From NCBI GenBank assembly GCA_020055645.1, contig CM034547.1:27900513-27964512 (forward strand): a stretch of 64,000 bases of DNA, read 5' to 3'. This document shows, piece by piece, positions 1,021-60,100 of this stretch. The DNA comes from Tomocerus qinae (Eukaryota; Arthropoda; Collembola; Entomobryomorpha; Tomoceridae). A program made the position numbers and the translations under genes. Numbering within the stretch: the first letter of the stretch is position 1; each line of letters opens with the position of its first letter. The notes under the pieces were generated by a model. The model did no database searches. It was not told the origin of the DNA and was given only the letters and a program-made list of their open reading frames with translations.

Positions 1021-4000
1021 CTAAACCATGGAAGAGCACAACCTCCTGCTCCTACATATCATATAGGAATCTAAACGCCGTTTCGATACCATTCGAAAGT
1101 GAATATACCCAAGAACTAAAAGAATCACAACACTTATGTAAACAACCATAAAAATCCCTATATCTGCAAGACTGAAGAAACTAGAGGATTTGGAATTACG
1201 ATTTTCATGGGCTTCACTCTCCATTTTTAACGGCGAATCTCGCACGACCCGCTTAGTCATCCTTTGGGGATTTGAATATACATGAACGAGATAATCTGCA
1301 ACTTTGTTTTCATCATAATGTCCAGGTCCAAGAAAACATTTAGGACATTGACGTACACTGGGGTATAATTGCTTAAGAAAAGATGGATCTTCACTTGCAG
1401 TGCCCTTAAGCCTATTACACGACAACGAATGATTAAATGTAATATATACAGAAATAGCTTCACCAAACTGTAAAAACAATAAATTACTGCCAATATGAAC
1501 AGGAGTATAAAATTCTCAATAAAATACCTTATATTGACTTTGTTATGGGCACTCCAGAGCCACAAAGCTTGTTCTCTAATCGGTTTAATAAGAAGGGCAT
1601 TTTCTTTCGCAACCATAGAAGTGAAATGTTGCGAGCAGTCAGTACAGCCAAAAATCTCTTTCACGTATCCATGAATAGCATCCAAAACTTGAATGTCTAA
1701 CTGTTTTTCCAATCCAATTATAGTTAGCGTATGAAAAAGTCGCCACAATCCACATGTATAACCTCTTCTCCCTAGAATGTAAGGAAAATGATAAACGTTA
1801 AATTATGAAGGTTAAACCAGTGAAACATCAATTTTTCTGTTTCAACCGATCAACAAAGCAGGTATACAGTTACAGAAGTAACAGCTTGTCATAATTTACA
1901 AAGGTTTTGTCAAAATAAGCTATCTTCAAAATCTTCATGAGATCAGGAAGTCTATTTCAAAATTTAAATAGGCAGATTAAATTCAAAAATGTGACCCCAT
2001 TTATCTGAATCATGAGAAACAAATTCTTTGATTTTATAAAACTGTTTTTAGCCCCAAACACCAATTGAAATAAATTTTATTAGGAAAAACTGACGACAAC
2101 ATATAGGTACCATAATATAATCTATTTAAAAAACTCTATGTCTAATATAGGTACTATCAAGATATTGGACTCAGACGATGATAATCAGCCATGAAAAGTT
2201 AGGTCGCGAATAAACATGCTACAAACCTGGAATAGAACCTTTACACCCCACCCAAGTAGATATATCGATATCCCAAGGATGAAACTCAACTTCCAGTTCC
2301 GTTAATTTGTCAAAATAAGTCTTGTCCTATTAAAATATCATCATTAAATAAATGAAACGAAAATGAATATTCATGGTTGTACCAGAAACAACAATATTTC
2401 TGCAAAATCACACAGTTAATATTATATTTATAGGAAACGAACAAACTTAATTATAATTTTTAATAAATAGCTTACTTTAATTTCATTCAACGGATGCAAC
2501 CAATTCTCCAGTTTGAGAAAAAAGAGTTTGATTTCTCTGCGGTCTGCTGGGAATAATTGGCTAAGAATACCAATGTATTTTTTCACAGCTTCTAATTTGG
2601 ATCCTTCAAGTTGTTTTATAAGTCCAATTTCATTGTGCAAAGAATTTCGAACAGCGTGAATTAAGTCCTCCAAGCTAACCTTATCTACTTTTACATTTTT
2701 GGCACCAACATCAGACGCTATCACTTCTGGTAAAGTTTCAATTTGTTTAACAATGTTCGGCGAAGGTGGTTCTCTAGAAATAATCATTAAAAGAGTAAGC
2801 ATATATTATTACGTTAATATTATACATATTATTTATTATTTAATAACTCTTTTCATAAATAAATACTAAATCTTACGGTAACGAGAGCTTAGCCAGATTT
2901 AAAACTGTTTTTGTGAGACCATCCACAAGATTTAAGTTCTTTTTTAGACTTATAGATCCCGAATTTCCGTCACGCTCTATATATCCGACAGCGGGCCAAC
3001 CTTCCAATTTCAAACTCGAATACAATGGATTTCGTTTACTAAAACGGAAAATCCGTACTTTTGGAAATTCACCGAGTTGTAGGGCCAATTCCTTTCCAAC
3101 AATCGAACTTTCACCCTCATACACCAATACGATAAATGATGTGTGAGCCTCAAGACGAGAATCGGTCCAAAATTGCGTTTTATCTGGTGTTATAGTCCAA
3201 TTCGGAGGTTGAAATAACTTTGGATAAATTTGGGTTAAATTGGTCATTAATTCTCGGCGCATATCACCGATCAGGTCTGAACGCTTAAATCTGCTACCTC
3301 GATTTAGTATTGATTTTCCATCTGTGCTGGTCTAGAAACAACAAATTGTCATTGAAGTCTAAAAGTTAGTAGAAATTAGGAACAATAAATGAATAATTAC
3401 GTACAACTTTTACAACTATGACGAGTATGATTCGTTAAAATTGTGACTGTGAGACAAGAGAAAAATTGTTACTCAAGATAGGGTAAATGTGAGTGTAAAA
3501 GTTTATAATTGCCACTTTTTGATTCACACATTCACTGTGTGTAATTGTTATTACACTATTTAAAAGGCATCATAAAAATATAAACCAGTAGAAACGAATT
3601 AAAACTTACAACGGTAGGTGTAGCATTTGGGGGAAATAATACCAACGTAGGATATCCCATTATTTCATACTCTCTACAAGTCTGTATGTTATTTTCATCT
3701 GCACAATCAATTCCAGCTACAGCTACAGCATTACTCCACCCTTAATACAAAATTGACTGTTAAGAAATAGGAATTCTGATTTTCCACATCAAAACATATT
3801 ACCTAGACTCATAAAAATATGAACACTACACATATATTTGATATTATAAAAATCATTTTACCGGAAACGTTTTCAGCAAAGGCTTTCCACGTGGGCGCAA
3901 AATGAATACAATGTCCACACCTAGTAAAAAATAATTGTAATTATATTGCTCAAAATGAGTTGAAAAACCATTATAATATTTATAATCGTCGGTTTTTGAT

Positions 4001-15959: not shown

Positions 15960-17915
15960 TCACCGAAAGTGTCACCGACCCCCTCCGATTACGACCAAAA
16001 TCGCTGAGCATATGTCTAAAATAGAGTAATTAACGAAATGGACCTTCAAAATTTTTTAAAAAATAAGAGGGGGCGTGGGGGGTAAGGGGAAGCTTTTCCA
16101 TTGGGAAGAAAGATTGTGACCAAACGGTAAGTCATAAAATTCTTTAGTTTTTTTCTAAAATAGCATAGATAGGTGCTTCATCCTGGCAAGGTATAAATTT
16201 TATTCAATTCGAATATTTTGGCGCGAAAAAAAATCGGTGAACCTGAAATTAGCAATAATTCAAACATTGTGGGTTGAAAATGGCACATATCGACTAAATA
16301 TTGAATATAAAAGATGCTAGATCATCTTAAATCTCCTTTCTAAGCAAGAATAAGGTTACATGTCCAAAATTTATTAACCCCTGTCCGGGGAAGCGGGGGC
16401 GATATAAGTTTGGATATTTAATTTCTCAAAACCTATTACGCCTAAAGACTTTAAACCACCGCCAAACAACTCAGCATCATGTAATGCATCATGGCATGGT
16501 GGTGTATTGTGTGTCACCCCACCCCCTCAGGGGGGTGTAGGGGAGGCTTAAGTTTGGAAACCCAATATCTCCAAAACTATTCGACGTACGGACTTGAAAC
16601 TACCGCCAATCAACTCAGCATCATGTAATGCATCATGGCATGGTAGTATATTGTGTGTTTCCTCACCCCCTTGTGGGGGTGTAAGGGAGGCTTAAGTTTG
16701 GAAACCCAATATCTCCAAAACTATTCGACGTACGGACTTGAAACTACCGCCAATCAACTCAGCATCATGTAATGCATCATGGCATGGTGGTATATTGTGT
16801 GTCACTCCACCCCCTGAGGGGGTTTAGGAGAGGCTTAAGTTTGGAAAGCCAATATCTCCAAAACTACTCAACGTACGGACTTGAAACTACCGCCAATCCA
16901 CTCAGCATCATGTAATGCATCATGGCATGGTAGTATATTGTGTGTCACCACACCCGTAGGGGAACCCAATATCTCCAAAACTACTCAACGTACGGACTTG
17001 AAACTACCGTCCATCAACTCAGCATCATGTAATGCATCATGACATGGTAGCAGGGTAGCCCTCAGTGGGTGTGGTGACACACAATATGCTACCATGCCAC
17101 GATGCATTACATGATGTTGAGTTGATTGGCGGTAGTTTTAATTCCCTACGTTGATTAGTTTTGGAGATATTGGGTTTCCAAACTTAAGCCTCCTTACACC
17201 CCCACAAGGGGGTGAGGAAACACACAATATACTACCATGCCATGATGCATTACATGATGCTGAGTTGATTGGCGGTAGTTTCAAGTCCGTACGTCGAATA
17301 GTTTTGGAGATATTGGGTTTCCAAACTTAAGCCTCCCTACACCCCTGAGGGGGTGGGGTGACACACAATACACCACCATGCCATGATGCATTACATGATG
17401 CTGAGTTGTTTGGCGGTGGTTTAAAGTCTTTAGGCGTAATAGGTTTTGAGAAATTAAATATCCAAACTTATATCGCCCCCGCTTCCCCGGACAGGGGTTA
17501 ATAAATTTTGGACATGTAACCTTATTCTTGCTTAGAAAGGAGATTTAAGATGATCTAGCATCTTTTATATTCAATATTTAGTCGATATGTGCCATTTTCA
17601 ACCCACAATGTTTGAATTATTGCTAATTTCAGGTTCACCGATTTTTTTTCGCGCCAAAATATTCGAATTGAATAAAATTTATACCTTGCCAGGATGAAGC
17701 ACCTATCTATGCTATTTTAGAAAAAAACTAAAGAATTTTATGACTTACCGTTTGGTCACAATCTTTCTTCCCAATGGAAAAGCTTCCCCTTACCCCCCAC
17801 GCCCCCTCTTATTTTTAAAAAAATTTTGAAGGTCCATTTCGTTAATTACTCTATTTTAGACATATGCTCAGCGATTTTGGTCGTAATCGGAGGGGGTCGG
17901 TGACACTTTCGGTGA
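15960..17915. mobile_element. 2-kb foldback element with internal ~143-bp tandem repeats
   Basis: The ends are TCACCGAAAGTGTCACCGAC and its complement. The arms mirror each other for at least 500 bp from each end (GGTAAGTCATAAAATTCTTTAG region) and on into the repeats, with the axis near 17050. The arms differ in how many repeat units they keep. There is no open frame of interest and no transposase. No target duplication was found. Confidence 0.85.
16400..17050 (+). repeat. Tandem repeat, unit about 142-145 bp, about 5 copies
   Basis: The landmark CAGCATCATGTAATGCATC starts at 16472, 16617, 16760, 16902 and 17020. The last interval is shortened (118 bp). Each unit also has GGCTTAAGTTTGGAAACCC and CCAATATCTCCAAAACTA, and a CACCCCCTNNGGGGGTGTA hairpin. 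About two further units occur inverted in the right arm of the foldback element. Confidence 0.9.
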
Positions 17916-21423: not shown

Positions 21424-24400
21424 ATGGCAGATACAAGGACGACTCAACCGCCATGGGCGTTAGAGTTGCTTGCCAAAAATATGAAAGTGGCCCGAAACAT
21501 GGGGATGTGGAGTTCTACAGAATCGTATTTTGAGTCTTCAGAAGCTATCCCTGTGGGGGAAGATGTATCGTTTGAGCATGAAGGACGGGGGACTCTCCGT
21601 AATAATGCAACTAGTAAGGTTGTTGACCCAGTCGGAGTGGCATCATCAACGTTAGGAATAGCAGCTTCAATACAGAGAAGAACCGGTAAGAAGCATTGGA
21701 GCAGAAAGAGTAACGGTTTCCCCTTAAACTGCTACAAATCAACATGTATTGTGCTCACTTCTTGTACGTGTTTCTCAATAGCACTTGAGTTTCACATACC
21801 TTCTATATCTATCTACTTTATCTCTGTCTATAATGGTAACTGAAATGTATGGTAGTTTCTGTTTGCTTGCATTCCTTCATGAATACTTAACCTAACCTAC
21901 CTGTCTCTCTCTCTTCCTTGTACAATATATACCTGTTGCCTGAGAAGAGATTATTGTGGTCTGCTATTAGGTAGTAGTACAATGTAGACTAGAGTAGACA
22001 GAATGCAGAACACTGAAGACAGTCACAACTCACAGCTCTGTGCACAACTGATATAAAATATTATCCTATGTTCTTATGTTCACATCTAACAATAAGCTAA
22101 ATAGGCAAGACATAGAGAGCTGGTACGCTGGTAGCGACTATACTATACATAGTAGTTACATAGCCGTTAAGGAATAAGAATTTGACTTGGCTTAAGCTTA
22201 CTAGTGAGTGAGATTCTTCTGTTACATTTACAATTCCATTATTTTACATCCGTGCTCTGGTTGGGTCAGGAACTGTTTCTTCTCAGCTTTAGTTTGCTTG
22301 GGTTGCTAATTCAATTGAAGCCAAGCCTCAGCTCTCTCCTTGTGTAAAAGTACATTGTAATTGTATGTAATTTTATAGTCATTTATACATACTATGTGTT
22401 TTATACTTTGCTACCACTTCTAATCATCATCCTCTCATTGTCTCCCATTTCTTGGACGATTCTGAGAGACTTGAGGCTTTGTTTTGTCCTCCTATAATAT
22501 GCCTTACTCTACAATCTTCACTGGTTGCTGAAGTATGTGTGTCTCGTAGAAGTTCCTTTTGTCAGATAGAAAAGCTCTAGGAAAAGCTAACTTTATTGTT
22601 TTTTTTATTCTGCACATCTATAAGGAGTGTGGTGTGTTTTGTGTGACCCTCTACTTTCTGGTATAATGCTCCTGTGCTCTGAATTCTGCCTGTGTGTGCT
22701 ATTAAAACTTGACATGTATGTATTGTTGTGATTGCAATTGTGAGCTAGGCATCCTTTGAATTGAAATTCTTGTATCAATTTATTCATAGTGTAAGTTGTT
22801 GGATTGTAGGAAAGTAACTTTAGTTGGATTTTGTCTTGTGCGGGGGTGAATGTGAGTTATAATTTTGCTGTGCTGCAGTGTTCTACGCTCTGTGATTGCC
22901 GGAAATAACTTCTTATCACTTGTTGCTCGCCAAAGAAACAGTTTCTGCAGTTTATTAGGATTTTATCTAAGCAGTACCTTCTTAGTAGTAATAACCATAA
23001 GTTTTAATAACATACAATTTGTAGGAAGACGTAAATAAATAAGTAGAGCTTTCCTAGTGCCCTAAGTGTACGGTGGTTTAGTTCTGTTCTCTCTCCTAAA
23101 TGTGATTGGTGTGCCTTGCCTCTTTATTTGTTTAGTGACCCGTTTGGAAGTTGATTTTGATTAAAAATCCTGAGCACATATGTATTATATTATGTTAATA
23201 GAGAAGTCGACACCGATACGGGAGGATGGCGTGGAAAACAACCGGAAGGAACTGAGGGATAAGATGAGTGGGGAAGAAAGCATCTTAGAGTATGGGCCAG
23301 GTATTGTGCGGAAATTAAGGTCAAGATATCAAAGCCTTGCTCTACGACAGAACAATGTACGACCTAGTTTACGCCGCTCAGCGAGCCTAGAGAATTGTCT
23401 TGATTCTGTCGGTGCTTCCGCTGAAGCGTTAGAACTTGTAGGTCTTGAGGTTGACTCCCCAAGTCCTATGCCTGTAAATGAAAATGAGCAGAAAAGTTTT
23501 AAGAGCAGCATGACTTTGAGTATGAGGTCAGATTGTGTCCCTGTGTCTCGGGGACGAGCGCCTGGAACAGAGAACAGTAATGTTAATCGGAGGGATCGAA
23601 TGCGACGTGCTCGTTCTGTGGATGCATTACATCGAACTCGACACGAAGAGGAAATATTGGAGAAATTCAAGACTGTGGTGTTACCTAAAGAGGAAATCGT
23701 CATTATCGAAGTGTCGAAACCACGAGCTAATCTTAGTAACTTAAGCCCAGATGATAAGGCAGTGAAGGGAAATTCGCAACAAGTATTTATGCCACCAGCA
23801 ACGTCAAACTTCAACTTGACTCTAAGCCCAATAGATTATTACAGCCAGCAACAGTATAATCAGTTACAGAGAGCTCGTAGTTTAACATCCCCAGAGCATG
23901 AGCTCCCTCCGCCAAATATTGTTTGTGAAACGGCACGAATTTTTGAAAAGAATCAAGAAAACATTCCCGCAAATAAAAAAGTTGGTCATGCTCTGAGATT
24001 GAGCAAGTCTAGCAGTGTTAGCAGCTTTGGCTCGCCCTCGCCCCCACCAACACCTTCTCCAACGAGTGCGCCTTTTAATCTAAGAAACAATCACGTCATG
24101 GCTCAAGGGTCACCATCAATGCAACATTTAGTCAAAGAAAAAGAGAAAAGTCCAAGTCCCTCATTCCCCATTTCTAAGGGGAATGCAAATGTGAGTGCTA
24201 ACTCCATCAATAGCACACAAAGCAATGTGAATAAATCTTCTGGCAACCATATTCTTGGATCGAAACAAGTTGGAGTGATTAGGCCCATTCCTTCGTCGAC
24301 GTTGAATGGCGAGAGAGGGCCGTCACCCGTTCTTATTTCACCCATAAACGTTCCAAATAAAACATTACAATTTTCGAAGAAACCACCGTTAAGTCCGAAA

Positions 24401-42186: not shown

Positions 42187-43497
42187 TGCTCTAATAGGGA
42201 TTCAACATGCTCTAATAGGGATTCAACATGCTCTAATAGGGATTCAACATGCTCTAATAGGGATTCAACATGCTCTAATAGGGATTCAACATGCTCTAAT
42301 AGGGATTCAACATGCTCTAATAGGGATTCAACATGCTCTAATAGGGATTCAACATGCTCTAATAGGGATTCAACATGCTCTAATAGGGATTCAACATGCT
42401 CTAATAGGGATTCAACATGCTCTAATAGGGATTCAACATGCTCTAATAGGGATTCAACATGCTCTAATAGGGATTCAACATGCTCTAATAGGGATTCAAC
42501 ATGCTCTAATAGGGATTCAACATGCTCTAATAGGGATTCAACATGCTCTAATAGGGATTCAACATGCTCTAATAGGGATTCAACATGCTCTAATAGGGAT
42601 TCAACATGCTCTAATAGGGATTCAACATGCTCTAATAGGGATTCAACATGCTCTAATAGGGATTCAACATGCTCTAATAGGGATTCAACATGCTCTAATA
42701 GGGATTCAACATGCTCTAATAGGGATTCAACATGCTCTAATAGGGATTCAACATGCTCTAATAGGGATTCAACATGCTCTAATAGGGATTCAACATGCTC
42801 TAATAGGGATTCAACATGCTCTAATAGGGATTCAACATGCTCTAATAGGGATTCAACATGCTCTAATAGGGATTCAACATGCTCTAATAGGGATTCAACA
42901 TGCTCTAATAGGGATTCAACATGCTCTAATAGGGATTCAACATGCTCTAATAGGGATTCAACATGCTCTAATAGGGATTCAACATGCTCTAATAGGGATT
43001 CAACATGCTCTAATAGGGATTCAACATGCTCTAATAGGGATTCAACATGCTCTAATAGGGATTCAACATGCTCTAATAGGGATTCAACATGCTCTAATAG
43101 GGATTCAACATGCTCTAATAGGGATTCAACATGCTCTAATAGGGATTCAACATGCTCTAATAGGGATTCAACATGCTCTAATAGGGATTCAACATGCTCT
43201 AATAGGGATTCAACATGCTCTAATAGGGATTCAACATGCTCTAATAGGGATTCAACATGCTCTAATAGGGATTCAACATGCTCTAATAGGGATTCAACAT
43301 GCTCTAATAGGGATTCAACATGCTCTAATAGGGATTCAACATGCTCTAAAAGGGATTCAACATGCTCTAATAGGGATTCAACATGCTCTAATAGGGATTC
43401 AACATGCTCTAATAGGGATTCAACATGCTCTAAAAGGGATTCAACATGCTCTAAAAGGGATTCAACATGCTCTAAAAGGGATTCAACATGCTCTAAC
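42187..43497. repeat. Homogeneous 21-bp minisatellite, about 62 copies
   Basis: The unit ATGCTCTAATAGGGATTCAAC is repeated with essentially no change for over 1.2 kb. The only variant seen, TAAAAGGG for TAATAGGG, appears once near 43348 and then in the last copies (from about 43430). The unit is a multiple of 3, so two plus frames and one minus frame stay open throughout, but none has its own ATG. This is repeat DNA, not a gene. Confidence 0.97.
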
Positions 43498-46400
43498 TAG
43501 GGGCGGACATTAATTAATTAATTTTGACGGTTAATTTTGATGTAAACCAAAGAGTAGAGCTGTAAACGAGCTGCAAAGCGTTTGTATTCAGAATGAAATT
43601 CAGTCATAGAAAGAATTCTGAATTAACCACACAGCTTATAAAAGAAAACTGCATAAAACAATTAACGACAACTCTCTTGCCTGGTACTTTACCAGTACTT
43701 TACTATACCGCTGCTATGCGCTCAACACCCACCTTTACCACCAGCAGTGCCCACTTGTGCCACTTGAGTTCAGATAAGAGCAAAAGTTGAAGTGGACACC
43801 AGGCAAAAAGGCAAAATTAGCACACAATTTGCATAATCCTGTTTTTCATTTACTCAACAGATATATTTTAGAGAAGCGACTTATTGAGTCTCGATTCTGG
43901 ATCCAGTTGCACAAGAACAAATAAAATGCTATTTTCATTATTTATAATGTGCATGCAGCATTAGCATGTAGTCAACATAGCCAACCAACATACTGATAGT
44001 CCGTGAAACCAACATCTTATAAATAGGTATGTCTTGTATGTATAGAACAAGTAGTGCATGTAAAAGTAGTAGTGAGTTTATGAGTTTATAATTTATTGAA
44101 TTCATTTGTATTTTTTAAAATATGTTTTTACATTTAAGTGTAAGACGGTCAGAAGATATTGAAGATATAACGGAAACAAAAACAAATAGATGCATTGACT
44201 TACATATCTACTTACTACATAATAACACATACAGAACACATACTTCGTGCATATAAAATAATACTCATACACAAACAATACATATAGGTTTAACATTTTA
44301 ACACATGTACATGATCCATACGAAATACGAATTAGTTTGTATTATACCTTTTCCATAAGAAACAATCCTTACCTTTACTTTTAGGTATAGTTTGCCATGC
44401 ATTTGATTATATGCACGCACGCATCACTGCTTCACATTCACACAACACAAACAAAACTCAAAAGAGAAAGTCAAAGCAAGAAAACGTAAAAAACAAACTA
44501 TACAGAAGAAAACCATCTGTCCGACAATCAGCAATAGATTATCATCAATATTTTTACGTAATTTTATATATAAATCACACTGTCTGCTCTGTGTTGCCGT
44601 GTAGTATACTTAACTTACCTATATACTTATACTTAACTCACCTACATGTATACTGTATAACATAGTATTGTTTTGCTATTTTCAAATGAATAATTTGCAA
44701 ACACATTGCATTGATCTTACTCATTTGCTAATGACCTAAATTTGAATTCCGTGTCACCCCACTTACTTACACAAGCCAGCTACACCTTAGTTGCGGTTAG
44801 TAAAGTAAAGATAAATACGTCTACTACTGACTACCAAACCAACAACTCAGTATTAGTACAAAATACCGATCTTCTTGTTTAATTGTTAGTCTGATTTAAA
44901 TAAAATCTGTGTTGATGTCTATTTTAAATTGAATTATACCAATACTATTTGTTTAAATATAGATTCAGAGAGAGTAGAACAGAAGATATTTATACACACA
45001 ACGACAGGAGGACACATCGACAATATATAATAATATCAGCACGAGCATTAGGAGTTTGGTTGGGCATTTATTTTTTCAGTGTTCAATATATATATACTTG
45101 GTTTAAGAAACAGTTTGAAAGCGTTTCTTTTAATACTTAGGACATTGAAATATTTAACGAAACTAACGAATTAATATTTGGTGGTCTTCTTGAGTCTTGA
45201 ATCATTATTATATATTATTATTATTATACACTGTGCAGTGCATATACAATACATACACTAAGATACCACAAGATCGCTGCCAAAGAAATTCAATTCATTG
45301 AAAAGTGTGTAACATTGCCATACCGCAGGGCCCTTGAAAAAGTCACTTGAAAAGAAATTGTCAGGGATTGGTCATCGGCTACAATCAAATTATCACTCAA
45401 ATTACTTGGTACGTTGTTTTTTATTATCTCAACATCAAGTAATTAACCTTAAAATATTACTACAAAATATAATTATTATTATTATTATAGTATAGTTTCT
45501 AATTTAAATAAGAAATTCTGGTTAAGAACTGTGATATTATTTATTTAATTTACAATTAATCAGTTGGGAGGGGGGTTAATGCATGAGCAATTGACAGTAT
45601 GTTATTATGTTATTGTAAATGGTGAATATCTCTCTAGTTTTTAACTTAGAGACGTATAAAATGAGAAAAAATTGCCAAAAGGTTGGCAGTGACGTAACAA
45701 ACCTATAAGTCTATTTCTTTTCCTACTACTGACTACCCACCATCCACCTTGTTTAATCATTGCCCCATTATTTCATGGGAAATTTGTTGATACGGTTGAT
45801 CGATTTGAATCTGAATATTGAAGGTATAGTCTTGTATTCACTGTTCGGTCTTCTCTTCGCCCACATTTACTCTAAGTTCAAAGTTTTATTATCGATTGTA
45901 ATTGTATCTTAACCTTCATTTCATAACTTACATATAGGATACAAAACTTTACATACAATACTCATTCATTTTATACATTTACATTTTCACATATTTGCAT
46001 TTAATTGCTATTCAGTTGGGATTCCCTTTTCCCCATTGTAATAGTACGCTGAAAACTGTATGTGTATTGTGTATTCTATTGTGTATTATTTTGCATTCAA
46101 TTCATTTTATCCTCAATTTAAAGAGTTTATCATTTTATATGGGAAAATCTCGTTATCCTATTATAAATTGACTTTCTGGAATGTAGATCTATAATATGTG
46201 TCGTATCTGTGTTAATTGTTTTGAAAATAGTAGAATAAATAATGTAATAATAATGCCAGTATTGTTCAATCAAAGCCTTTTTTATAGGTAAATCAAAGTA
46301 TTACTCGATACTCGTAAATATAAATATGTCGTAAAATAACGTAGATGACATAGACTTTTCGCGGACGCAATTTTTGCCCGACTTTCGACCGAAGTTCGTA

Positions 46401-49400: not shown

Positions 49401-49927
49401 TTTGTGACTTGGAAATTGTTTATGGTAGGTTGGTAATTTGCTGAATGAAAGCGGACAATTGTTATTAATAATCACACCCTATTTAATCGGGTGTGTGTTG
49501 TTTTGCGAAAGCTTAAAGGATAAATCTAAAAATATTTTCTACCTGCCGACCGCAGGTACTCGAAAGGCAATTTTGTTACCTGACCGTTGTACAGGGAGTA
49601 AGAAAACCTTAAGTGCCCTTCTTGTGCTTATATTTTTTTGGTAGTACTACTCTGCTTATGCTTGCTTCTCTTTCACACGAAGAAACATTATGCATATAGA
49701 AATAGCTTCAATGTACTGTACACATGTTGGTTGTTCAGTATGAGTATATGTGGTCAGCATATTTTATCGCATGGCCATTGTAACGAACTATACCTTGCAA
49801 ATATATTTAAATATATGATGAATGATGACTGCGTAATCTAAATTGCTTAATCGAAAATTAAATTTGTTGAAAAGCACAATTTCTTCGGGATTTTTTAGCT
49901 TGCTAGCTTGTTCTAGCAAATAAAATA
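43498..49927. other. 6.4-kb stretch without a recognised gene
   Basis: AT-rich on both strands. Open frames are short, rich in F, Y, I and C, and show no family features. A GC-richer hairpin lies at 46540-46615. No clear transposon ends were found. It could be intergenic or a long intron. Confidence 0.4.
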
Positions 49928-50620
49928 ATGGAATTTCGTAGATCTGTTAAAATAATTTATTTTATGATGGATAGTAAACAATTTTATTTTTTAAGAGGAA
50001 GAAAAGTGGGCAGCTTGTTAATTTTTAATGAAAGAATATATCGAAACTCAAAAAATAGTTTGGCAGGAAATGTGCGGTGTTGGAAGTGCCAATCAGATTG
50101 TCAGGTTCATTTAATCACTGAAAATAATTTACTTTTAAGTGAAGGAGACCAAAGCCAACATACACATGGATCCGAAATAATAGAGATAGTAGTTTTACAT
50201 TTTTTAAATCGGCTAAGAAATGCCATTGAAATGGATCCGTCACAGTTACTATCGATTCTGTACAAGTAAGCAAATTTAACAAGCTTTAAATTAAGTATAT
50301 GTATATGATTTCACATAGAGATAGTTAAATATTTTGCTGATAATTTAAATATACGGAAAGAGCTCGAATTAGTTCCAGTTGAAATTCGTCCATAAATGCC
50401 CCAATTTCATCGCTGCGTCACATTATTTGCCGAAATGATGATTTTAGGAGCTGAAAAAAATCTAAAGTTACTTTGTAAATGTGAAAAAAATTTACATGGA
50501 CGGAACATTTCAGAAAATTCCAAGGCTCTTGTTTTTCAGATGTACACTTTACATTGCCGTTGTGATTTCTACGATTTATCACATTATATTAGTAGAAAAT
50601 ATTTTAGAATTACAAAATAA
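49928..50620 (+). pseudogene. FLYWCH zinc-finger protein remnant
   Basis: The first frame (49928-50269, 113 aa) contains a good FLYWCH-type finger: KVGSLLIFNERIY, then RCWKC, CQVHL and a closing HTH. It continues with FLNRLRNAIEMDPSQLLSILY, like the helical stretch that follows the finger in many insect FLYWCH/Mutator-like proteins. A GTAAGC at 50268 could be a donor. A second frame just downstream (LNIRKELELVPVEIRP, then a TAA at 50394, then a 74-codon frame to 50620) may continue the protein but is broken by that in-frame stop. Most likely a decayed Mutator-like transposase or a domesticated derivative. An alternatively spliced FLYWCH exon of a host gene is the other possibility. Confidence 0.5.
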
Positions 50621-53600: not shown

Positions 53601-53885
53601 CTAATACTACTACTACTACATACGAATATGACTTAGATAGATATTAGACATTATTATATACCTCACTCACAAGCCAGTCAAACCACACATAAAGCTCATA
53701 TTATTAAATTATTTCTTTCCAAGTGTAAACCTTCTTATTCTTTTTACTTATTGCATATTGCTAGTTTGGTTTTTAGACTGTGCTAAATATTAGTATGTCG
53801 TTATACATTCTTATACTTATACTCTATTGTCCTTCACTAACATCAGTAACATCTTTTCAGTTTCTTAAGTCAAGTCATAATTGTT
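50621..53885. other. 3.3-kb stretch without a recognised gene
   Basis: AT-rich. The short open frames (for example 51123-51389 and its antisense partner) show no known motif. No transposon ends or tandem arrays noticed. Confidence 0.4.
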
Positions 53886-54044
53886 AGACAGTTAGTTTTT
53901 TTCTTTAACTTAACTTTGAGCCTGACTTAACGTAAGTCTTCACGCGATTTTCCTTACGAAATAAACTTACGCTAGGGTTACGTCGAACAGTTAGTGATTT
54001 TCAGTAAGTATTAGATTGCGTAAAATGATGCCGCAAATTTTAAA

Positions 54045-54121
54045 TTATTTTGCAAAAGTTTGAAATGTATACATTTCAAACTTTTGCAAAATAACGAGTA
54101 ACGGTATACCGTTACTCGTTA
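54045..54121. promoter_or_regulatory. Two adjacent perfect palindromes upstream of the transposase start
   Basis: 54045-54094 is a perfect 50-bp palindrome centred on GTATAC. 54092-54121 is a perfect 30-bp palindrome also centred on GTATAC, overlapping the first by 3 bp. They end 42 bp before the transposase ATG. They may be protein-binding sites, part of the promoter, or a transposition enhancer; this is inference. Confidence 0.7.
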
Positions 54122-54163
54122 CGAAATAAAAGGTTGGAAGCATCTTGAACCAATTTTGAAACC

Positions 54164-55499
54164 ATGAAACCTATGCCGGGTAAGACTTTTAATCAAGCAA
54201 ACTTTTTTGTAACTGTTCCCATAATTAATGATTTTGTCTATATCCATTAATTTAAAATATATTTTAGTGAAATCGTTGTTCAAACTATGCATCAGTGGGG
54301 TAATTTCTACAACCGAATACTGGAAGTATCGAAAACTTAGAAGAAGATCGTACAAAAGTCTACTTGCCTTTAGAAAACCATTCATTTTAACAAAGTATAC
54401 AGATGAAGAATCATTGCTTTACTTCAGATTTACTAAGTCAGAAATTAACCTACTCTGCCAGCAAATGCGGATGCCCAAAGCTATCAGAATGGCAAGCGGC
54501 GAGAGATTTTCTAGTAAGAATTAAAATAATACGCAGTGCCTCTATATTTCATTTCGAAACTATTTTTTGGCAATTAAAAATTACATATTTTTGTATTCAC
54601 GTATAGGAATTGAAGGACTGTGTATAATGCTCAGGAGACTGAGCTACCCAAATCGCCTTGTTGACCTGGTGCATATGTTTTATCGTAATCCAGGAAGTAT
54701 TTCAAAAATAGCTAATTATATGATACGTAGAATATACTCTACCCATTGTCACCTTCTTCAAAAGCTAAAACAAAAATGGTTAACTGCTCCAGTAAAGCTA
54801 AGTATGACTGAGGTGAGTACTGTATCAATTAACTAAAAAAGTAGAAAGGAAAACTCATAATAATATATCGTTTAAAGTATCCTATTTTTGTTCCAGAGTA
54901 TATCAGAATCAGGGTCAGTCTACCAAAATACCATTGGCTTCATAGACGGAACGGCAAGATCAATATGTCGGCCAAAGTACAATCAGAAAATAATGTATAG
55001 CGGTTACAAAAAGCAACATGTCATGAAGTACCAAAGTGTCGTGTTTCCAAATGGATTAATTGGACGGTTAGATGGACCTTTTACTGGAAGAAGGCACGAT
55101 TCTGCTATCCTCCACTTAAGCCGAATAAAAGAAGAATTGGAGAAGGAATTTGTCAACGGTGACGGCACTTGGTATACGCTGTATGGGGATCCTGGGTACT
55201 CTAACCAAAAATTCATAAAAGTGGGGTATAAAAACTATGGGAATTTAAGTGCTATTCAGAAAGAATTCAATGCAACAATGTCGGCTCTTCGGATATCAGT
55301 AGAATATGGCTTTGGAAAAATTGCGCAGCAATTTGCGTTCTTAGATTTCAAGAAGAATCAAAAAATATACCTCCAAGAGTTAAAGAAGCAATACTACGTA
55401 GCAGCACTACTTGTAAATTGCCAAACATGTATGAGAGGGGATCAAGTTTCCAAGTATTTCAATATGCATCCGCCAACACTAGAGGAATATCTAAATTAA
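54164..55499 (+). CDS. PIF/Harbinger DDE transposase (HARBI1-like nuclease), 4 exons
   Basis: Catalyses excision and integration of the element. Exons 54164-54179, 54268-54513, 54607-54812 and 54897-55499 have GT-AG borders and consistent phases, total 1071 nt (356 aa), close to the normal family length. The N-terminal helical region has LLYFRFTKSEINLLC and CIMLRRLSYPNRLVDLV, typical of Harbinger. The DDE nuclease shows the first Asp in GFIDGTARSI, the second in GRRHDSAI (with GDPGYSN following), and the Glu in SVEYGFGKI. No stop or frame break is visible, so it may be functional. The tiny first exon (MKPMP) is the least certain part, and translation could start elsewhere. The 3' end faces the partner gene 144 bp away. 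Confidence 0.93.
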
Positions 55500-55643
55500 A
55501 TCAGTAATTTATCTAAACGTTGAAAAGATTTAATGATACTAGTTTTGGAGTTATAGAGTACAAAAAATTTCAGAGTTTCTGAACTAAATACTTAGTTTAA
55601 TCATCAAGCGTATAATTATCCAAAAGGAAATAAAAAATTCTAA

Positions 55644-56816
55644 TCACAGATTGTCTTTATTTTTAGTTAAATTAGCCAATAACTGAAGCATTTGGGATTG
55701 TAGATGCAATTGTGAGGCATTGAATTCATTCCGCCGTTGGGTTTCTTCAGCTAAGCGCTCTTCTCGTTTATATTCCAACTGCAATCGTTTTTCTTCAACC
55801 TCGAGTCTTTTCTCTTCCATGTCCAGCTCTCTTTTCATTTTCTCTTCTTGTAATCTTAATTTCTCTGCTTCAATGTTCATATCATGAAGTTGTTTTGATT
55901 TAATCAGCTCATCTTCGGGGGCCATTGTCATGCGTTTTTTTCTTTGAAGTTTTAGCTGAGGAATCGATTCTGAAAAAAATACATTTAATTTTAGATTTAT
56001 CCTACCAAAATACATAAGACGCATTTTTTCATATTATGGTACTATCACCAATAATAATTAAGTGTTTAAAAATATTACCTCCAAAATTCTCAAGGGCATT
56101 ATTTCTCTCTTTATCTGCTTCCTCTCTTTCCCGTTTTTTCAAATTTCTGGGTTCAGCATCGGCACACGCCTGAGAAACTTCGCTTTCATTAAACGTTTCT
56201 GGAAGTTCTTCCACAACTGCATCAGCGTTAAACTCAAAGTTTATGGCAGCATTTGACTCTTCAATGAGGGATTTAATATTTTCTAATAGTAGTCCACGCT
56301 CACTTTTTTCTTCCTCGGTTCCGGTTCTAAAAAATCACATCATTTTAAAAATAGAAAAAAATGCCTGAAAAAGTAAAAATTATGGATATATTTAATAACT
56401 ACTTACTTGATAGATAACTCTTGTTTGTCATATTTTTCAACCAACAAATTTAGTCGACCCTTGATAGTTCTTTCAGTCAGTTTACATTGAAATTCAGCTT
56501 CTAACTCGGTCACGATATCTCCCATCTGCTTTACCTAACTGCCACGGATTTTGTTGTAAGGCGCATTTTAACAGGACTATGTCTTTGCGGATTGTGAAAA
56601 CAAACCTATGTTTATCTCCATCCTACAAAAATAAATGAAAATAAATTCGAGAAAATCATATTTTTATGTCTAATGTGCTTTCAGCGTTCTCATTCATAAC
56701 AATTCATTTTTCAATTCACTTTAACCGTGAAAAATGAATTGTTGTGGTTAACTGCTTTAACTTCATTGTTTTTGAATATTTTTTACCTTTTGACTTGACG
56801 TTTCAGCCTTTTTCAT
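55644..56816 (-). pseudogene. Harbinger Myb/SANT-like partner protein, with apparent 1-nt frameshift
   Basis: In this superfamily the second protein helps bring the transposase into the nucleus and binds the element ends. Exons in transcript order: 56816-56787, 56622-56407, 56326-56079 and 55969-55644. Phases agree across all junctions only if exon 2 is one base shorter. The SANT-like part begins RFVFTIRKDIVLLKCALQQN and PWQLGKA. Near 56525 the frame must shift by one to continue into MGDIVTELEAEF, LTERTIKGRLNLLVEKYDKQ and TGTEEEKSERGLLLENI. The C-terminal half is a long charged coiled coil (EAEKLRLQEEKMKRELDMEE). Without a shift translation stops 14 codons later. Alternatively, translation starts at the ATG at 56525, giving a protein lacking the first SANT helix. 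Confidence 0.8.
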
Positions 56817-57107
56817 CGTGATGACTTGAAAATCAATTAGTTTTTGTAACTTGCAACAGTTTCCGTTTAGTTGTAGTGTTGTAGTTTGCAAAAATTGCAA
56901 TGAGCGCTTTTAATTTTTGCAGGCAGACTAAATCCTGAGTGGCTTACGTGCGGTCGTAAGTCTCAAACGTAGTGTAGCCATTTTTACGCGACGTAAGTCG
57001 ATTTTTTTGGCGTAGCGTTGGAGTTTTGCGGAAAAGGGGAGGAGCTTAGCGTAAAACTTACGCTACGTCAGACTCAAAGTTAAGTTAAGGAAAAAAACTA
57101 ACTGTCT

Positions 57108-60100
57108 GTTATTGTGAACCCTGAAGTTATAATTTAAACCAGCTATTATTGTTGTGACGAATTTAATTACCCAACTAAACCAATACTTATGCAATTATTT
57201 TTTCAGGTTGGAAATGCAAATTGTTTGTCAACAATTGTTTTCCAGTCGTGAATTCAAAAATGAGTGATAGAGTCTTCCAAATTGGTGCCGTCCTTTTTCT
57301 CTGTCTGTAACCAATTCTATTCATTAAGTGTGGACCCACGGTTAAGGCTAGTCTCTTGTGTACGCCTTACCCTTACCTACCTCATTCTTTATACATGTTT
57401 CAACAGCGTGATGTAAGGAAGCAAATATACATAGGAAGTGGTGTGTCATCGTGTTTAGTTTCATTTATTATTTTCAAACTATTTTGCAATCGAATGTACT
57501 TATCTATTCTTGGAATTAATGATTAATCATCTAGTTTAACTACTTTTTTGTGTACCTGCCTACGTAACCTGAGATATATACTTACACACTATAATAATTT
57601 CCAATATTGTGAGTACATCAGTAAACTGTTGTTTAATACGTGTGATATAATAACATTTTAAATACCATTCGCCCTGAGACTGTGTGTACCCATAATCGTT
57701 GCCTTTACTTGTCTACATTGTCAAAACTGAAATTCTTCTGTCACTGGCGGAAAACGATGACAAGGAAGAGTTTTTGAATGTTGCCTTTGCAACTGCCCCC
57801 GAATGATTCACATGGAAGTTGGCATACGGGCGTGTCCACTCAGTTCACAAGTCCGCTTTGGGTCTCACCTGCACAAACCATTTAAAAATAATGGTCAGGT
57901 TTATCACCAGAAAAGATGACGAGCCAAGAGGTAAGTATGTATATTTTGTGCTAACATTCCTTTGTAGTCATAATACTTTATCTTTCGACAAACGCAATAA
58001 ATAATATATATTGAACGGGAGACACTTTGCATCGTAAATGTACAGGTATGTACATCATAAATGTACAGATACGTTGAATGATACTTTATCGCAGTTGTAT
58101 AGCTACTACGTAGAATTGTGTATTGATAAGCGACTCAATTTTATGTCTGCATTGGTGGAAATGTGGAAGAAAAAGTTGAAGAGACCTTTGGGAATGCATT
58201 CGAATTGAAAAAAATAATGGGAGCATTACGCTAATGATGTCATGAATTATTTACAAAATTCAGAGTTGTTGATAGATTGACAGCTGCTGCGACTATTTGT
58301 TCACGATGTCCACTTCAAAGAAAGTTTCGGGCTTCGTCCTTTCAACATTTTGGGTCGGTGCATGATAGCAAGTGGTAGATAACTGAGAAACCAATATATG
58401 ACGGGCACGGGACGAACCCAAGTTCATGCACATGCATGTGTTGGACAAGCTGTCATATCATTTATTCTTCTCTAATAATTTATTCACGGTTCTTACTTTT
58501 CGTGAAAAACTTTGGATTATTTTTGTGGAATTCAATGTAGAGATAGGCTTGTCTGTATCCACGAGTCCACCGTAATGATGATGGTCAGTCACGAATACTA
58601 AAGTAAGCTTTTAAGTGCCAGGTGAAACAAGGACTTGTCGTACTTTTTGTATTGCAAATTGTAGTATACATGCTTAAGTTATTTTAGCCCTATTGCTTTG
58701 TGAACATAGTAGAAGCTTGCACGCCAACGTGTGGGATGTATAAAGTTTAATGTCATCATTTACCGCTTAAAGAGAAAATAGAAGATGAAAGCAATAATGA
58801 TACATAACTGATCGATACAATCAGTTAGTGTCCTTGAGCATGGGTGACAAATACTCGGAACTATTATTTATTCATAAATATATTCCTCCTTTGAGAACAT
58901 GGCATATGTTAACCATGAAAAGAATTTCACCTTAACATAATTCATGTAGTACACTAACATTTTAAATTGTAGTGGATGACTCTGTGGTAGTCTTCTCAGT
59001 TTCTTTAGCATGTCATATTCATTTATTTCTGCGACGTGGCAAATGTGTACATATTGCTATTACCAATACATTAGCGTGTTTAATCTGCTTTCTCTATATG
59101 CTCAAGAAAATGTTTTTATGCGCCAGTGTAATAAATTCGGTATTGGTTGAATGACTACAAATAAATGCTAAGACAGATAAGTAGATAGGTTAGCGATCGT
59201 AAAATTCACCTTGGCACGCATGAAGGTGGGTGTATTGGCTTATTGGAGAAAGCTTTAGAATTACGGTAGAGAGCCTTGAAAGCCAGACCTTTTTAATACA
59301 CTCTCTTGTTGATTACCTCCTCCTACTGCCAATAATAATGGCTCTGCTAAAGCACTCCTTACAGGTATCTACCTAACATTCGAAAGTGTAACGAGAGGGT
59401 TGAGTTAGTGTTTGATTGCTATGTGATATTTGATTTGATGTGTCGATTCTATTTTGTCAAGTTACCCCTTCTTATCGCACGTGGACAATTATGCTACACA
59501 GATATATACACTAACAAAAGAGTCACTAAAGAAAAGAATAGTAATTAAGGGAACCACCAATCAATTAGAACAAATTCCATAATATTGACGTTTGAGAGTA
59601 TATAAATATTCCATTCAATCCGGGGCAATCCCCCCTGTGATTTTTCTTGCTACGCTCTAGACCACGTCAATGTCTACTTTGTCCATTTTGCTTGTGTGCA
59701 CCACTACAAGTATCGCAAAGTTATTGCAAGCCACACCTAAGGGAATACCTTTCAGACTAATACAACATGTAGATAATGTCTGTTTGCTTCATGTGAATAG
59801 GAATACACAAAGTAGTTCACATTTCCACATGCAAAAGTGCGATAAAGAAAAATGGAACGAAGAATAATAGAAAATTAATAATAACAGAAGTTATCACTCA
59901 CATGCACGCATTATATTTCCATATATAGAGTAGTAAAAGCAGTCGATTGGTAATGGTGACATGCTTTTAGTATCAGTAGACTGAACTTTATCAGATAATA
60001 AAATTTTTTGATAAATGGTAGGCAAAGGAAGGTATCAAGTATATTAATGTTTATTTTTATTAGTGCATATAGTGAAACTCAAGAAATTCCTAACCGCCCT

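Follow-up and report, generated by a model that had tools for sequence, protein, structure and literature searches.

A young, probably Pangu-type two-gene transposon in the genome of Tomocerus qinae

According to a survey of PIF/Harbinger and related transposons, target rules can be assigned by group: TWA for PIF/Harbinger proper, A-N-T for Pangu, CWG for NuwaI and TNA for NuwaII (Han et al. 2015, PMC4482050). In the same source, Pangu elements are characterized by a length of about 3.5 kb, two genes and inverted ends of 11-40 bp that begin with AG or GG, the ends of most PIF/Harbinger families are given as shorter than 60 bp and beginning with A or G, and the A-N-T target is also assigned to bacterial IS5. 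The second Pangu protein is reported to contain no known motif in the Results and a Myb/SANT domain in the Discussion, and 2 of the 34 Pangu families surveyed were considered potentially active, with both genes intact (PMC4482050). Pangu corresponds to Harbinger2 of Repbase (PMC12730594). Harbinger3_DR and the rice elements need two proteins, and the Myb-like protein of Harbinger3_DR has been reported to bind a subterminal motif (PMC9710019).

Here, we describe an element from the collembolan Tomocerus qinae that lies in a stretch of 64,000 nucleotides (GCA_020055645.1, contig CM034547.1, positions 27,900,513 to 27,964,512), the whole of which is referred to below as the window. The element is most likely a young Pangu-type (Repbase Harbinger2) two-gene transposon of the Harbinger superfamily, a reading to which we assign a probability of about 0.88.

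Structure, target sites and classification

The nearly complete element occupies positions 53886..57107 of the window (3,222 bp; plus strand, that of the transposase), as delimited by its inverted ends, the flanking duplication and four near-identical copies that end at the same bases. The left terminal inverted repeat (53886..53940, plus strand) begins with AGACAG, and the right one is located at 57053..57107 on the minus strand. Both are 55 nt long and 91% complementary to each other, with a local alignment score of 88, whereas 300 simple shuffles gave scores of 25 at most. When up to three mismatches were allowed, an 18-base end motif was present in the window only at the two ends of the element. 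The trinucleotide GTT is found on either side (53883..53885 and 57108..57110). Both the matching inverted ends and the exact GTT duplication, as proposed in a preliminary description of this DNA, were therefore present, and the limits given there for the element are exact. Because the G is repeated at either flank, the simplest reading is that the duplication is a genuine one of 3 bp, and that the A seen in most cases is preferred at the target instead of belonging to the element. A search of one haplotype with the joined flanks, carried out for a paralogous empty site of this insertion, matched only the insertion's own place.

The target rule was analyzed using short, internally deleted copies. 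We examined 50 loci, of which five lacked a standard end and were dropped, and 45 had both ends. Exact 3-bp duplications were observed in 37 of these 45 copies, all of them A-N-T (AAT in 19, ATT in 15 and AGT in 3), and the other eight were mismatched. All six full copies (four of the window subfamily and two of a second subfamily described below) also had an exact 3-bp duplication (GTT, AAT, ATT, AAT, AAT and ATT, respectively), which was A-N-T in five, the GTT of the window copy being the sole exception. In a separate reading, window-type short copies with both ends included three with an exact A-N-T duplication and one (L015) with a mismatched one. Five of the eight mismatched duplications (L034, L042, L047, L059 and L080) differed solely at the central base of A-N-T, which could result from recombination between copies or from a repair effect.

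The element has the features of the PHIS superfamily, namely a DDE_Tnp_4 domain with three acidic residues, terminal inverted repeats and a short duplication. The name Harbinger used in the preliminary description is appropriate at this level, whereas the target rule, the ends and the coding content fit Pangu and not PIF/Harbinger proper. The properties shared with Pangu/Harbinger2 are the A-N-T rule, the two genes (within about 3.2 kb in this case), a transposase without any domain beyond DDE, a second protein lacking any confident Pfam match, and ends with the expected AG or GG start, which read AGACAG in the window element and AGGCAG in the second subfamily. On the other hand, the 55-bp ends of the window element exceed the 11-40 bp of Pangu, which is a reported range and not a strict criterion, its insertion occurred at GTT, and it carries palindromes (see below) that are not described for Pangu in the available text of PMC4482050.

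It might be argued that the element belongs to PIF/Harbinger in the narrow sense and simply has a loose 3-bp target. The DDE_Tnp_4 domain of the same superfamily, the presence of a partner gene, the 3-bp duplication and the short non-autonomous derivatives are all shared with that group (Ping/Pong, Harbinger3_DR). A weak resemblance of the partner to Myb proteins, seen in below-threshold matches only, would also fit it, as would the length and first base of the ends (<60 bp, A or G; PMC4482050). However, the TWA rule of PIF/Harbinger was not seen in this family, with no TWA among the 37 exact duplications of short copies or those of the six full copies. In addition, in a family of the same genome with 50% protein identity, A-N-T was found in five of five copies if the ends were set at AGAGAGG, a boundary of our own choice. 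We consider a narrow PIF/Harbinger assignment quite unlikely and prefer the Pangu assignment.

Bacterial IS5 elements have a related DDE domain: plasmid transposases were approximately 27-33% identical to that of the window element (best 15 of 20 matches), and the NCBIfam model IS5_4 matched the latter with E = 1.1e-7 and a score well short of the model's cut-off. Unlike the window element, IS5 consists of one intronless gene and is not known to have a partner protein. Two places on another contig of the assembly (C12:10282-10764 and 22961-23443) also gave distant transposase matches, with 25% identity and open frames of 304 aa; these may be IS5 copies from bacteria, either a symbiont or a contaminant.

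Elsewhere in the window, a 21-bp minisatellite at 42187-43502 (62.6 copies, 99% match) leaves several reading frames open over 1.3 kb. Two tandem arrays with units of about 144 bp (16447-16955 and 17059-17470) look mutually reverse-complementary and would form a large inverted pair. A FLYWCH zinc finger, matching at the Pfam cut-off (E = 5.6e-5), is encoded by an open frame at 49907-50269 on the plus strand, and what is probably a quiescin sulfhydryl oxidase gene is represented by exons at 1021-3331 on the minus strand (Evr1_Alr, E = 2.1e-15; QSOX_Trx1 only below cut-off).

Sister copies, age and wider relatives

A DNA search of the organism's own genome (334 Mb in 115 contigs) revealed four full copies, 3,220-3,225 bp in length, on four different contigs, with exact 3-bp duplications of GTT (window), AAT, ATT and AAT. 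Pairs of these copies differ at 3-14 of 3,226 alignment columns; 17 columns differ in all, just two of which are outside exons. Only four private substitutions could be identified, two in the copy on contig C3 and two in that on C1 (one of the latter adjoins a 3-bp deletion), and none in the copy on C4 or in the window copy, which corresponds to a load of approximately 0.03% per copy. The mutation rate of Drosophila is about 3e-9 per site and generation; using this value, the divergence of the four copies would be on the order of 1e5 generations old or less. A second subfamily with approximately 70% DNA identity to the window element is represented by two copies on contig C5, which differ at 2 of 3,031 columns and are flanked by AAT and ATT duplications. 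Furthermore, the 45 short copies scored included identical sets at different places (three over 379 bp and five over 390 bp), and one short copy is nested in another, two uninterrupted relatives of which show the empty site with a single AAT. On the basis of the near-identical full copies, the near-identical C5 pair and the identical short copies, recent movement of the family is well supported without recourse to the argument of the preliminary description. This is consistent with the youth and recent activity suggested previously, and the idea that all related copies might be highly diverged is contradicted by the four near-identical ones.

Selection that holds the transposase open could in principle give a youthful look to a copy that is in fact old, or to a pair of domesticated genes, and strong purifying selection is indeed visible between the two subfamilies (see below). 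However, across the four copies, the ends, introns and spacer, which contain the two non-exonic differences mentioned above, are at least as identical as the genes. The exact duplications and the dispersal of the four copies also oppose such a history, and domesticated pairs are described as being without ends and duplications (PMC9710019), both of which are present in the window element. We regard an old or domesticated origin as extremely improbable, and the element as a genuinely young transposon.

A wider search of the same genome with exon 4 of the transposase yielded at least 89 match rows from 150 of 180 candidates scored. It should be noted that these rows are pieces rather than elements, many being fragments, and that introns were read through. 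The first 11 of the 89 listed rows are stop-free in exon 4, and 42 of the 89 contain at least one stop, some of which perhaps stem from the read-through introns. The preliminary assumption that most genomic copies are badly decayed did not apply to the closest relatives, that is, the 11 stop-free rows, and the wider set is mixed. At least two further related families with about 50% transposase identity (L089-L094 and others) were observed, one of which has at least 17 places of near-equal score. An in-frame TAG at these 17 places (175.2-175.6 bits) and at further, lower-ranking ones may not be a shared defect, since in L094, the one such locus read, it falls where a short intron could lie. In another of these families, namely that with 50% protein identity to the window transposase, the matching stretches of five copies show 99.0-99.8% identity to the first copy. 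The genome appears to be rich in young Pangu-like families.

Transposase and partner genes

The transposase gene is predicted to consist of four exons on the plus strand, at 54164..54179, 54268..54513, 54607..54812 and 54897..55499, and the same exon structure could be identified in the 70%-identical subfamily. Every intron of this splice model is GT...AG, and the coding length is 1,071 nt (356 aa plus stop). Exon 4 contains the DDE_Tnp_4 domain (PF13359; E = 1.1e-23, full model covered) with the acidic residues D173, D254 and E292. The sole other Pfam match above cut-off is DDE_Tnp_1, which overlaps DDE_Tnp_4. The gene is open in all six full copies of both subfamilies, and in the C1 copy one residue is missing near the first aspartate. 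An unbroken four-exon transposase with all three catalytic acidic residues had been claimed for the window copy, which agrees with our observations for predicted exons. With regard to remote relatives, none of the PDB sequences searched was a convincing relative of the transposase (best E = 0.46), and no transposase relative was confirmed in viral contigs, in which 37 stretches fit the peptide pattern. A candidate phage relative was rejected, being a single record with 28% identity, and a structure prediction of exon 4 alone was set aside (mean pLDDT 31.9).

The partner gene is convergent to the transposase gene and lies on the minus strand between 56816 and 55644, with predicted exons at 56787..56816, 56407..56622, 56079..56326 and 55644..55969, the last of which includes the stop. 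Exon 2 contains a weak Myb/SANT-like region, and exon 4 encodes a charged C-terminus, which on visual inspection resembles a coiled coil. The 273-aa protein had no Pfam match. Its N-terminus alone gave a Myb/SANT match below threshold (E = 0.073). A trace of the same kind was seen for the partner N-terminus in a related family (E = 0.0057), and none for the corresponding piece of the second subfamily. Between the two subfamilies, protein identity is 85.1% for the transposase and 65.4% for the partner, and the dN/dS values are 0.025 and 0.11, respectively, which are rough estimates because synonymous sites are saturated. Both proteins have clearly been kept by selection between the subfamilies.

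In the window copy, the partner is out of frame. Only one lesion had been noted previously; this should be corrected to two private 1-bp homopolymer contractions in exon 2 (56518..56532, minus strand), which are located near 56520 and 56529, about 9 bp apart. A third private contraction of the window copy lies between the two genes. As each of the three affects a homopolymer, they could plausibly be errors of the assembly. Two of the six full copies, one in each subfamily, have an open partner together with an open transposase. One explanation is that the partner of the window copy is truly dead and that this copy could move only with help from its sister copies. In addition to the two contractions themselves, all six frameshift events in the six full copies fall in the partner and none in the transposase, for which the chance is 0.0067 by length alone and 0.036 if counted by copies (4/4). 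However, 1-bp changes in homopolymers, which are common as assembly errors, account for five of these six events, three homopolymer runs of at least 6 are present in the partner compared with one in the transposase, and the test of frameshift bias was devised after the data had been seen. The arguments for and against a dead partner appear to us to be evenly balanced.

Subterminal motifs, palindromes and a model of movement

CGTAA/TTACG motifs are clustered just inside the ends of the element, at 53931..54023 on the left and 56943..57063 on the right, and may represent protein-binding sites. Of the 13 motifs counted in the sister copy on C4, 11 are in the outer 170 and 190 bp and two in the remaining 2,865 bp, and in the C5 subfamily 10 of 11 are in the outer parts; words spanning the cuts between outer and inner parts are left out of these counts. 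By analogy with Harbinger3_DR and the rice elements, the partner, with its weakly Myb/SANT-like region and charged tail, probably binds these clusters. The bound partner would then recruit the DDE transposase, which would cut at the AGACAG ends, and the element would be joined into a 3-bp staggered A-N-T target (the unusual GTT in the case of the window copy), leaving the duplication. Machinery supplied in trans from open copies could also move short copies and copies with a broken partner, and in this way the family may still be moving at present.

A perfect 50-bp palindrome (54045..54094) and a perfect 30-bp palindrome (54092..54121), each with GTA|TAC at its centre, overlap by 3 bp and lie approximately 40-120 bp upstream of the transposase start. 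The pair is unchanged in all four full copies, with no differing column in this region. It is missing from all eight relatives for which both flanks could be aligned, and these read straight through (a ninth, L023, aligns on the left only and was left out of the count), and the C5 subfamily is without the palindrome region. Chance was rejected as an explanation, given that positions 100-63900 of the window hold only three perfect spacer-free palindromes of at least 18 bp, two of which are these, and an assembly slip is unlikely for a feature common to all four copies. The gain amounts to 46 bp and comprises the left arm, its inverse, the inverse of the right arm and the right arm, joined at a shared TAA. 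It could have arisen by short-range template switching or by foldback repair of a break, processes that are reported elsewhere (PMC7954356, PMC10622511). As RNA, the stretch was predicted to fold much more stably than shuffles (z = -9.25), as expected of any palindrome. No full copy of the window subfamily without the palindromes was found in the DNA search of the genome, and most simply the four copies descend from one that already carried them. A more far-reaching scenario, in which the family is moving now with intact source copies and, in addition, the newly gained hairpin-forming pair has changed expression or escape from silencing in the expanding lineage, seems unlikely to us.

Apart from the rarity of intact Pangu families, the element is an ordinary young transposon from an established, if little-studied, branch of the Harbinger superfamily. 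Its interest comes mainly from the small number of such families in the survey mentioned above (PMC4482050, as far as its available text goes). Among the literature matches listed for Pangu/Harbinger2, none seems, from the text available, to have addressed Pangu movement by experiment. Since the genome contains a pair of young subfamilies, both including a copy in which the two genes are open, as well as freshly moved short copies, the requirement for the partner becomes testable in it, as does the question of why Pangu elements target A-N-T.
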